Virus record (IMG/VR): IMGVR_UViG_3300020469_000186
Span: 1-28,900 of that record
From: a virus
Direction: 5' to 3' (one strand)
DNA length: 28,900 bases
Shown: positions 2,478 through 28,900 of the stretch, piece by piece
Numbering within the stretch: position 1 is the stretch's first letter
Layout of the letters: each line of letters starts with the position of its first letter
The notes under the pieces: model-generated
The model's input: only the letters and a program-made list of their open reading frames with translations
The model's database searches: none
What the model was told of the DNA's origin: nothing
Position numbers and translations under genes: made by a program

Positions 2478-2496
2478 TTGTTTTTGTTTTATACTA

Positions 2497-2528
2497 CAAT
2501 ATTAAATAATATAATTGTTATAAACAAA
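2497..2528 (-). promoter_or_regulatory. Bacteroidota-type promoter before 2477
   Basis: On the minus strand, TTTG (2528-2525), a 20-bp spacer and TAATATTG (2504-2497), one mismatch from TAnnTTTG. The upstream DNA carries a tandem TTTGTTTATA word, also seen at the promoter before 26280. It lies in a 73-bp intergenic gap, one of the few in this operon. Confidence 0.65.
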
Positions 2529-2550
2529 TTATAAACAAACTTTTTTTGTT

Positions 2551-25088: not shown

Positions 25089-25827
25089 TTAAATTTGTTT
25101 TTAATCCTTGATGCTTCTATGTCGTTCTTTTCTTTTGTGTACTCTAAATACGTTAAGCATTGGTGTACGTTTAGTTTAGTGATATTTTCAAATCTTGTAA
25201 TATCTCCGTTAGCGATTGCATAGAGGGAATTAAACCATCCCCATTTTGCTGTGAAATTAGATGCTGTGCTAAAGCCTTCTCGTTCTTCTTGTCCAAAGAG
25301 TTCAGCATAACCATCGACAAGTCCTTGCCTAAACTGTAAAAAAAAACAATAGCACCTAACACAACACCTAAAGGAAACTCTTTAGCATCTTCGCTTGTGT
25401 CTGGGTTGTAATCTTTTATTGTATATCTATTACCTCGCTTGTGTTCTATTGGTCTAAATAGTACGTTTATTGCTCTATGTAAGTTATCATTATCGCCTAT
25501 GAAAGTGTCTAAGTCCATATACTCTCCAAAGCTCATATCGTCAAGCTGAGGAATAAATCCGTATTCTTTACCATCTAGTTTGAATCTGTTTATCATTTGA
25601 TGTTCTGTGTCAAACATATTATTTATAATCTCGCATATCTCAGCTATGTCAGTAGCTTTCATATTACGAACAACAATCTCTGGTACTTTACAAAAGATTT
25701 CTATTATCTTTAATTGTATCGCTGTGTCGTTAGTTTCATCTAGTTTAGTTTCTAGCTTTGCAAACTCTTGATATTGTGCAAGGGTTACGTCATTAAGATT
25801 TGATGGGATTCTTAGATTAACTTTCAT
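25085..25827 (-). CDS. Tail assembly chaperone, -1 frameshift product (247 aa)
   Basis: At codons 161-163 (GTT TTT TTT, followed by TAC) nine T in a row (25338-25346) give a perfect U UUU UUU slippery heptamer. A -1 shift leads to 84 further residues (LQFRQGLVDGYAELFGQEER, then KWGWFNSLYAIANGDITRFE and QCLTYLEYTKEKND) up to TGA at 25085-25087. The WGW..LY.LAnGDI pattern matches C-terminal extensions encoded beside such chaperones in Bacteroidota phages. The new stop overlaps the next start as ATGA, while the zero-frame stop leaves an 82-base gap; the shift therefore fits the operon better. This is analogous to lambda gpG-GT. Confidence 0.75.
25171..25827 (-). CDS. Tail assembly chaperone-like protein, zero-frame product
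   Basis: 218 aa starting MKVNLRIPSNLNDVTLAQYQ, a start common in Bacteroidota phage proteins next to tail genes. The helix-rich body (YGFIPQLDDMSFGEYMDLDT) and the length fit a lambda gpG-type chaperone that coats the tape measure. The zero-frame end (YSLGKDLSMVMLNSLDKK..., stop at 25171) is one of two endings: nine T at codons 161-164 allow a -1 shift (next entry). The start lies 12 bases from a TATTAATATATAA element, just after the structured RNA's terminator. Unusually it is separated from the tape measure by six genes. Confidence 0.7.
   Translation of the reverse strand: MKVNLRIPSNLNDVTLAQYQEFAKLETKLDETNDTAIQLKIIEIFCKVPEIVVRNMKATDIAEICEIINNMFDTEHQMINRFKLDGKEYGFIPQLDDMSFGEYMDLDTFIGDNDNLHRAINVLFRPIEHKRGNRYTIKDYNPDTSEDAKEFPLGVVLGAIVFFYSLGKDLSMVMLNSLDKKNEKALAQHLISQQNGDGLIPSMQSLTEILQDLKISLN
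25338..25347 (-). promoter_or_regulatory. Slippery site for -1 ribosomal frameshift
   Basis: Minus-strand G followed by nine T, read in the zero frame as GTT TTT TTT TAC. Both tRNA(Phe) could re-pair after a -1 slip. I did not define a stimulatory stem or pseudoknot downstream. Polymerase slippage on the T run is an alternative way to the same product. Confidence 0.7.
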
Positions 25828-25838
25828 ATTACTTTGCT

Positions 25839-25860
25839 TATTAATATATAAACAAAATTA
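25839..25860 (-). promoter_or_regulatory. Late promoter candidate before chaperone gene
   Basis: Minus strand TAATTTTG (25860-25853), a full TAnnTTTG match, followed immediately by TTTATATATTAATA (the 13-mer at 25839-25851). It follows the terminator of the structured RNA by about 15 bases; its -33 region falls in the terminator's T-tract (TTTTTTTATG). Confidence 0.55.
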
Positions 25861-25875
25861 ATAATTTTTAGACAT

Positions 25876-25904
25876 AAAAAAACCCCTACACGTCTGTAAG
25901 GGTT
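25876..25904 (-). terminator. Intrinsic terminator of the structured RNA
   Basis: Minus strand AACCCTTACA/TGTAGGGGTT pair over 10 bp (one G-U) around GACG, followed by seven T counting the stem end. The ascending arm's AACCC can instead pair with GGGTTAA at 26201-26195 (TTAACCC at 25906-25900), which would break the terminator. Confidence 0.9.
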
Positions 25905-26279
25905 AATTTATAGAATATTAAATAAAAGTGAGGTGGTAGTTAGGGTTTAAGACAACTTGATAGGGATGCCTTACCCTCGTAGCTATCAAACTACTTCTTT
26001 CTTCTACCTTTAAGAGAATACTTTCTATCTCTCCTTTGCTAATGTTTATTGTCTTGTTTGATTACTGTAGCTGTCGTTCCATTCTTTTGACTATCGCCCT
26101 TCTGGGCGACTGGGTGGATAAAATCCCAGACCTTCTACAGACACATTCTCAAATAATCAGATACTCTTTCAATCTGTTTCACACCATTTGTTATTTAACC
26201 CCCCTACTGTTTCAAGGGGAAGCAAGTTTCCTTTTGTTTAATATTCAATATGTTTAAGAACTTTGTACTATTTCTTGTA
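25876..26279 (-). ncRNA. Candidate structured non-coding RNA, about 400 nt, class unknown
   Basis: This fills the 520-bp gap between terL and the chaperone gene and has no coding frame on the minus strand. It begins just after a strong promoter and ends in an intrinsic terminator. Helices in order (minus strand): 26219-26215 with 26205-26201 (CCCCT/AGGGG); 26159-26154 with 26064-26059 (TGATTA/TAATCA); 26140-26135 with 26070-26065 (CTGTAG/CTACAG), enclosing 26129-26125/26114-26110 (CTGGG/CCCAG) and 26108-26104/26099-26095 (CGCCC/GGGCG, AGAA loop); 26055-26049 with 25955-25949 (AAGACAA/TTGTCTT), enclosing 26032-26028/26017-26013 (AGAGA/TCTCT) and 25989-25983/25957-25963 (TTGATAG/CTATCAA). No tRNA, tmRNA or group I intron features are seen. 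Pairing is by eye, with no energy or covariation test. Confidence 0.65.
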
Positions 26280-26284
26280 CACTA

Positions 26285-26317
26285 CAAATATACAACATAA
26301 TAAACGTTATAAACAAA
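26285..26317 (-). promoter_or_regulatory. Bacteroidota-type promoter of the structured RNA
   Basis: Minus strand TTTG (26317-26314), a 21-bp spacer and TATATTTG (26292-26285), a full TAnnTTTG match. It is preceded by TTTATAATTTGTTTATAAC, shared with the promoter before 2477. Start of transcription is expected near 26279. Confidence 0.75.
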
Positions 26318-26348
26318 TTATAAACATATTTTAACAAAACTTTAACAT

Positions 26349-27554
26349 TTAGTGTACTATATACCTACCTCTATTTGGGTTTTGTAACTGATAGCCTACT
26401 GCATATCTAACAGCATCTATCAAGTGATTGTATTTGTCTATAGGTGTATTGCTCTTACGTTCTAACCAGCGATAGTTGTTTAGCTCTTTGATGAGGTTTG
26501 TACTATTTGGGTCTATTACTAAATCATAATCTTGTAGTAGGCTTATTCCGTATGTTACACTTCCTTGTCCTTTTATACTTGGCTTTACGTTGCAATGTCT
26601 TTTAAGTTCTGTTATTAGTCTTGGCTCTGCACTATCCCCTACTATTAAGCCATCTCTAGCGTGTTTCTGATTCAGCTCTGCTATTTGTGATGTTGTTAGT
26701 CTTGGTAAGTAAAAACACTCTTTTAAATATATTCTCTTATTGGCTCTGTCTATGTTTACCTCAACTAATGTAGAAGGATCAGCTGCAAATCCATAATCTT
26801 GCCCCCATACACTTACGCTTGTTTTTTTAAACTCTCCTATTGTCCAGTTGCTAAATATAACACCCTCAGCTTTAGACATCCAACTACCTAGCATTTGTTG
26901 TTTGTACTTCTCTGGTCTACGTTTACGCATTTGGTCTATTTGGTCTATGTAGCTTTTAGATAGGTTGTCTATGTTGTCTATATAAGTTGTGTGTATGTAA
27001 GTAGTGTTTTCTTTTGTTGTATTGCTTCCCTCTTGTACTCCTCTTTCCTCAAAGAATCGTGTATATATAAAGTGTTCCTTAGTAGTAGGGTTTAGTATTA
27101 GTATAACTCTATTAGGTTTGCCTTGCTGTCTTACACTTAGGTCTATGGTATCAAACTTCTGCTCGTCTGTTAGTTCCTCAGCCTCATCTACTACCCAAGT
27201 AGTAATCCCTTGCAGAGATTTAAGGTTTGCAGTCTGATCTCCACTTGATGTCTTAATACCTCTAAATATTATCTTGCTACCTGTCTTTTTGTTTAGTATC
27301 TCGTCTTTGGTTATGTGAAAATCGTGTACGCAATTAAAGAGTTCTAGCTTGTCTATAAACTCTGGAATGATAGAGATGTATGCTGAGGTTAATGTATAAC
27401 GTGTAAATAGTATTGTGTGCCCTTGCTCGTATGTTAGCTTAACTAAAAGGGCATTAATAGTAAAAGACTTTCCACTACCTCTACCACCACTTACTATAAA
27501 GTACCTACTATCTTCGCTGAGTATAGGTTTGTATTTGTTGTGTATGTTAATCAA
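26349..27554 (-). CDS. terL: Terminase large subunit (PBSX-type)
   Basis: 401 aa. ATPase: Walker A GGRGSGKS at residues 23-30 and Walker B TWVVDEAEEL with Asp123-Glu124. Coupling motif region ILNPT near 153. Nuclease: WGQDYGFAADPSTL (Asp253), GLIVGDSAEPRLI (Asp307) and NHLIDAVRYAVGY (Asp380), the three acidic residues of the RNase H-like nuclease. It packages DNA into the prohead with TerS, whose gene overlaps by 8 bases. Length is usual for the PBSX family (about 400-430 aa). The gene ends next to the promoter of the structured RNA. Confidence 0.95.
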   Translation of the reverse strand: MINIHNKYKPILSEDSRYFIVSGGRGSGKSFTINALLVKLTYEQGHTILFTRYTLTSAYISIIPEFIDKLELFNCVHDFHITKDEILNKKTGSKIIFRGIKTSSGDQTANLKSLQGITTWVVDEAEELTDEQKFDTIDLSVRQQGKPNRVILILNPTTKEHFIYTRFFEERGVQEGSNTTKENTTYIHTTYIDNIDNLSKSYIDQIDQMRKRRPEKYKQQMLGSWMSKAEGVIFSNWTIGEFKKTSVSVWGQDYGFAADPSTLVEVNIDRANKRIYLKECFYLPRLTTSQIAELNQKHARDGLIVGDSAEPRLITELKRHCNVKPSIKGQGSVTYGISLLQDYDLVIDPNSTNLIKELNNYRWLERKSNTPIDKYNHLIDAVRYAVGYQLQNPNRGRYIVH

Positions 27555-28729: not shown

Positions 28730-28851
28730 ACTACTTCTTTTTCTACTTTCTTATATATAGCGTAACCATTGTCTTTTAAGAATTGTATTGCTTCTTCTAT
28801 TTTTTTTTGTTCTATTCTGTAACTGTCAAATATTTCGTTATGTATTACCAT
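28726..28851 (-). CDS. Small hypothetical protein spanning the circular join (41 aa)
   Basis: 41 aa (MVIHNEIFDSYRIEQKKIEE, AIQFLKDNGYAIYKKVEKEV). A helix followed by FLKDNGYAIY, which reads like a short helix-turn-strand. Its start at 28851 also corresponds to position 28 in the left copy, and it overlaps the gene at 15-473 by 14 bases after circularisation. Its stop overlaps the DnaA-like start as ATGA. Function unknown. Confidence 0.6.
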   Translation of the reverse strand: MVIHNEIFDSYRIEQKKIEEAIQFLKDNGYAIYKKVEKEVV

Positions 28852-28900
28852 TGTTTTTATTATTATATTTACTTAAAGGTGCTTTACCTTCTTCTTCTAA
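28824..28900. repeat. Terminal direct repeat, right copy
   Basis: Exact second copy of bases 1-77. It carries the 5' end of the 41-aa gene (start codon at 28849-28851) and the 3' end of the gene annotated at 15-473. Confidence 0.95.

Follow-up and report, generated by a model that had tools for sequence, protein, structure and literature searches.

A covarying RNA of a class absent from Rfam, as candidate optional cargo next to the terminase gene of a phage

The window, by which we mean the whole stretch of 28,900 nucleotides that was analysed, appears to carry between terL and the following gene an independently transcribed, structured noncoding RNA of ~400 nt, and we consider it probable (roughly 60%) that this RNA is optional cargo, an 'RNA moron', of an exchangeable terL-adjacent cassette in marine Bacteroidota phages. 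That the region encodes a structured RNA of a class absent from Rfam, a novel class having been raised by the first-pass annotation, is well supported: compensatory changes go beyond those of the controls, the fold fits members that were held out from its prediction, and Rfam holds no match.

The window looks like a whole phage genome, complete at ~28.8 kb, as its bases 1-77 are identical to 28824-28900 (an exact 77-bp terminal repeat) and as related contigs span the terminal junction, carrying both of its sides in the same order. Almost every long gene is on the minus strand, including terL (26349-27554) and a 218-aa gene (25171-25827), which flank a gap of 521 bp (25828-26348). Among cultured phages, Nonlabens phage P12024L comes nearest in its TerL (54%), and the host is therefore probably a marine flavobacterium; in P12024L itself, terL abuts the next gene, with no space there for the RNA. 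The gap had been described as free of genes and provided with a promoter and a 10-bp terminator, and this description holds, with no ORF of at least 30 aa on the minus strand of the 521 bp. The cassette is made up of the following elements:

25828-26348, minus strand: whole cargo cassette, consisting of the promoter block, the RNA, the terminator and, ahead of the following gene, a short AT-rich tail; 'empty' relatives have 28-40 bp here
26285-26317, minus strand: Bacteroidota-type promoter, TTTG-N21-TATATTTG, in a block conserved in relatives
25876-26280, minus strand: predicted transcript of ~400 nt, as deduced from the promoter and terminator positions
25906-26253, minus strand: conserved structured RNA core, the region matched by nhmmer and the covariance model, without the terminator
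25874-25904, minus strand: intrinsic terminator, a 10-bp stem (25904-25881) plus U-tract, common to relatives with other cargo

The Bacteroidota promoter consensus has TTTG at -33 and TAnnTTTG at -7 (PMC2483708). As chance alone would give the bare pattern about two times per window, the weight of the promoter rests on its place and on its conservation in relatives. Transcription would start near 26280. As judged by sequence, the RNA cassette has a promoter and a terminator of its own. A terminator-like site on the plus strand (26213-26236) lies inside the RNA and was taken as chance.

The minus strand of the gap folds better than its shuffles (z = -3.65, 0/100), the plus strand more weakly (z = -2.8). 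A TerL scan yielded 80 related viral contigs, and homologues of the RNA were gathered by pattern scans, a scan with the downstream protein and nhmmer; 41 pattern-scan matches in genome contigs were put down to chance, as nhmmer confirmed none. Duplicates aside, full-length homologues are found in L010, L039, L043, L048, L049, L053, L085, L086, L088 and L104, and more divergent ones, also full-length, in L204, L211, L106 and L227. Thirteen distinct members were aligned with MAFFT on sequence only (alignment A5), and this alignment was scored against a structure that has 83 pairs and was drawn up from the helices of the window with the relatives in view. In this alignment 86.3% of cells are paired and 41 of the 83 pairs show compensatory change, with both sides altered; the covariation score is 0.318, as compared with 0.131 +/- 0.010 for shuffles (0/500) and at most 0.114 for slid partners. 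Covariation in homologous gaps, for which the first-pass annotation had asked, is thus present.

As the shuffles ignore the relatedness of the members, and as the helices were written with relatives in view, a held-out test was also made. An RNAalifold structure derived from the 11 sequences of another alignment, A1, which lacks L106, L204, L211 and L227, was transferred to these four members, where 74.3% of cells are paired (37-48.5% in 16 slid versions) and 25 pairs show compensatory change (at most 17 in slid versions). A hand-chosen helix table, a source of arm variants cited below, is biased by that choice and serves for illustration only; it is the A5 covariation and the held-out test that carry the argument. 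It should also be considered that, between two sequence types, MAFFT fails to align H3-H5 correctly, and A5 therefore understates the support for these helices; the arms as read by hand pair in nearly all cells, though they were picked by eye. Taken as comparisons between sequences, these data show an RNA structure under selection and no conserved coding frame.

25913-26246, minus strand: closing helix P1, 26246-26237 with 25922-25913 and 26235-26231 with 25928-25924
26036-26225, minus strand: span of helices P2 and P3
26225-26221 with 26040-26036, minus strand: helix P2, UUGCU/AGCAA (UUAGC/GCUAA in L204)
26184-26181 with 26045-26042, minus strand: helix P3, GUGU/ACAU (GCGU/ACGU in L106)
26201-26219, minus strand: hairpin H1, 26219-26216 with 26204-26201, CCCC/GGGG
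26158-26176, minus strand: hairpin H2, CAGAU-UGAAAGAGU-AUCUG, with a conserved loop
26065-26140, minus strand: long-range helix H3, 26140-26135 with 26070-26065, CUGUAG/CUACAG, enclosing H4, H5 and H5b
26129-26125 with 26114-26110, minus strand: H4, inside H3
26109-26104 with 26099-26094, minus strand: H5, inside H3
26091-26089 with 26075-26073, minus strand: H5b, inside H3
26013-26032, minus strand: hairpin H6, AGAGA/UCUCU (AUGCAU/AUGCAU in L039), with double change in 4 of 5 pairs
25935-26008, minus strand: 3' domain, H9 (26008-26004 with 25939-25935) around H7, H8 and H10
25994-25991 with 25982-25979, minus strand: H7, inside H9
25977-25973 with 25946-25942, minus strand: H8, inside H9
25970-25967 with 25954-25951, minus strand: H10, inside H9
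25957-25989, minus strand: kissing-loop candidate, H7 loop UUGAUAG (25989-25983) with H10 loop CUAUCAA (25963-25957)

P1 closes the RNA and is paired in 96.8% of cells, with double change at 3 pairs, and is re-formed with different sequence in L106 and L227. Inside it lie the 5' domain (P2, P3, hairpins H1 and H2, and the long-range H3 around H4, H5 and H5b), hairpin H6 and the 3' domain. The stem of H1 reads elsewhere as CTCG/CGAG, CCTC/GAGG, CTCTC/GAGAG, CTATG/CATAG or GTGG/CCAC, and that of H2 as CAGCU/AGCUG (L106) or AUAGC/GCUAU (L204), while H7, H8, H9 and H10 show double change at most of their pairs. Two of the four helices named in the first-pass annotation are conserved and two are not. 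CTGTAG/CTACAG corresponds to H3 and is conserved with covariation. TTGATAG/CTATCAA is the contact between the H7 and H10 loops, probably a loop-loop kiss; it pairs in 93% of cells and is nearly invariant, its sole variant, in L039, being compensated (CUGAUA/UAUCAG). TGATTA/TAATCA and AAGACAA/TTGTCTT are paired in 47% and 41% of cells, respectively, no better than shuffles.

Rfam scans of the window and eight relatives gave no credible match to a described family, the best in the permissive scan being TarA (E 0.18, score 22.6 against a cut-off of 80), and a blastn search against annotated phages and plasmids returned noise only. Covariance-model searches found no match to the RNA in 75 further loci, nor in 395 bacterial genomes of the class to which Flagellimonas belongs, where stricter filters make this a weak negative.

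For a census of the slot, we considered 119 loci that have the window-type TerL and both flanks, which reduce to 49 distinct gap sequences. Twenty of these are empty (28, 35 or 40 bp), ten carry the main RNA, ten a small ORF of 49-90 aa, four a long ORF, one a second hairpin RNA and four something else. The two genes that flank the RNA cassette are direct neighbours in relatives, and the promoter block and the terminator are common to cassettes of differing content. The long ORFs would encode DNA methyltransferases, and the one of the four that was checked by Pfam proved an N6/N4 DNA methylase; the small ORFs have no annotated function, and none is annotated as anti-defence. Across the compared loci, presence or absence and swapped contents show the slot to be an exchangeable promoter-terminator cassette.

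Some further contents of the slot are also recorded here. The second noncoding cargo (L195:2803-2890, L199:2800-2890 and L043:7014-7045) consists of a single hairpin or a pair of hairpins, in which the 14-nt loop, AGTWTATGAAATAA, is conserved and the 5-bp stems differ compensatorily (CTTAG/CTAAG, GGTTG/CAACC, GTTGA/TCAAC, GGTGG/CCACC and GTTGG/CCAAC); in L043 it precedes the main RNA within one cassette. A further, ORF-less cargo, enclosed by this promoter and terminator as well and with no Rfam match, occurs at L029:2422-2847, at L030:7210-7635 and in L184, and a cassette with the shared ends at L215:2513-3000 has no ORF above 37 aa.

The main RNA follows terL in four TerL lineages, those of the window, L085, L227 and L106. 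In L227, the TerL is of a third kind, and in L085 it is only 32% identical to that of the window, with the downstream gene at 82%. The same relation is seen throughout L085, L164, L165, L174, L177, L180, L199, L203 and L206 (TerL 31-36% identical, downstream gene 79-86%), so that terL itself has been exchanged beside the slot. In the distant lineage of L114, the slot faces the opposite way. It is provided there with a conserved promoter of its own, TTTG-N21-TATATTTG, and a conserved terminator, and is mostly empty (27-35 bp); where it is filled, the content is small ORFs, an ORF of 256 aa or the main RNA, the latter in L106, L110, L111 and L114. Reversed slots after terL with ORFs of 50-82 aa or 256 aa were seen in L325, L326, L328, L340, L362, L366, L369 and L349, most of them with the conserved promoter. 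Outside the terL neighbourhood, the RNA and the same promoter block are found in L088, L091 and L094 between the lysis genes and the point where the early genes begin, these roles being read from translations.

Takeover, counter-defence and exclusion are the usual roles of genes at such slots, and it is because of the company that the RNA keeps there that we propose a role in trans. Host RNA polymerase would transcribe the RNA from the Bacteroidota-type promoter, and the RNA would then act as a folded molecule through its long closing stem, conserved unpaired segments and loop-loop contact. It might bind a protein, an RNA or a ribonucleoprotein of the host or of a rival phage, and such binding could help in takeover, counter-defence or exclusion. 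Pairing of the RNA to its own genome is no longer than in shuffles, which speaks against simple antisense action on the phage's own mRNAs. RNA cargo of this kind is known: the moron site of lambdoid prophages carries anti-sRNAs, such as AgvB and AsxR of E. coli, and AgvB and its relatives are Hfq-bound RNAs of 51-60 nt (PMC4104026). Like phage morons in general, AgvB and AsxR included, the RNA described here is an optional load that separates genes lying side by side in relatives; unlike AgvB and its relatives, it has ~400 nt and a complex conserved fold, and it belongs to Bacteroidota phages. More tentatively, and at somewhat less than even odds, it could represent a novel kind of large phage RNA that comprises ~15 helices plus a kissing-loop contact, does as a folded RNA effector what anti-defence or takeover proteins do, and is exchanged, like protein effectors, at a dedicated cargo slot.

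To our knowledge, large structured phage RNAs are few, and no job is known for GOLLD and ROOL. An ornate, self-assembling RNA like these two, forming a nanocage or oligomer with UUGAUAG/CUAUCAA partly intermolecular, is an unlikely reading here and yet the most interesting open alternative. The RNA shares with them that it is large, elaborate, free of protein-coding sequence and phage-borne, its fold includes a 7-bp loop-loop contact, and GOLLD and ROOL themselves provide the precedent (PMC12286853). However, it is shorter, the contact may be intramolecular, and neither family matches it by sequence or Rfam covariance model, in line with the earlier remark that neither could be recognised. GOLLD and ROOL are also often found near tRNA islands (PMC12286853), and no tRNA gene is present in the window.

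We regard as quite improbable a non-autonomous mobile RNA element, i.e. an ORF-less intron, a retron-like element or a transposon remnant. The pattern of presence and absence and the several places in the genome would fit such an element, as would the 256-aa ORF that is the cargo of the same slot in L349 and looks like a GIY-YIG homing endonuclease. Yet no gene is interrupted, the RNA has its own promoter and terminator, no target duplication is obvious, and the swapping of cargo is explained by homologous recombination at the shared cassette ends. A group I or group II intron in particular was rejected, as the RNA is intergenic and matches no intron family in Rfam. About equally improbable is a cis-acting leader or attenuator of the downstream structural operon. 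The RNA does lie upstream of the window's structural genes, with a terminator before them, but close relatives keep the operon without the RNA (gap of 28-40 bp), in L106 and L114 the RNA is antisense to the operon, and in L088 and L094 it precedes other genes.

The first-pass annotation had also thought of a packaging-motor RNA like the pRNA of phi29, working with the adjacent terminase, and this we consider very improbable. phi29 pRNA, of roughly 120-170 nt, is a required part of the packaging motor and hence occurs in every member of its phage group. Here, L003, with a TerL 99.8-100% identical to that of the window, has a gap of 28 bp, as have relatives with a 96-100% identical TerL. The covariance model finds no copy of the RNA anywhere in L004 (a near-complete record of 28,960 bp, TerL 96%) or in the near-complete relatives L021, L032, L045, L066 and L069; over 27 related records, it finds none in 23 and recovers all four known carriers. 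As close relatives thus do without the RNA, it is not essential to the shared motor. Absence of the gap from close relatives, which had been named beforehand as evidence against the candidate RNA, counts against an essential packaging role and not against the existence of the RNA. The comparison with pRNA is owed to the place of this phage RNA beside the terminase, but the RNA is dispensable in its family, is much longer, matches no described RNA family model and can sit elsewhere in the genome, as at the lysis/early junction of L088, L091 and L094. Nonetheless, the RNA recurs directly behind terL in four TerL lineages, so that its position by itself gives no ground for discarding a link to packaging, and a role as a packaging aid keeps a small probability. 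Least credible of all is a degenerate small gene in place of a functional RNA, as the open frame of 39-53 aa that is kept in one sequence type is lacking in the window, indels among the homologues are not in threes, and covariation is strong.

If the RNA is indeed optional cargo of an exchangeable cassette, its role is testable by comparing presence with absence, as the family is compact and modular and as carriers and non-carriers differ mainly in the RNA. The slot, with one promoter, one terminator and interchangeable contents, is also a source of short candidate RNA and protein effectors against Bacteroidota hosts. Elsewhere in the window, the early region holds a 79% copy of the cassette promoter block (2483-2543, minus strand), ahead of small early genes.
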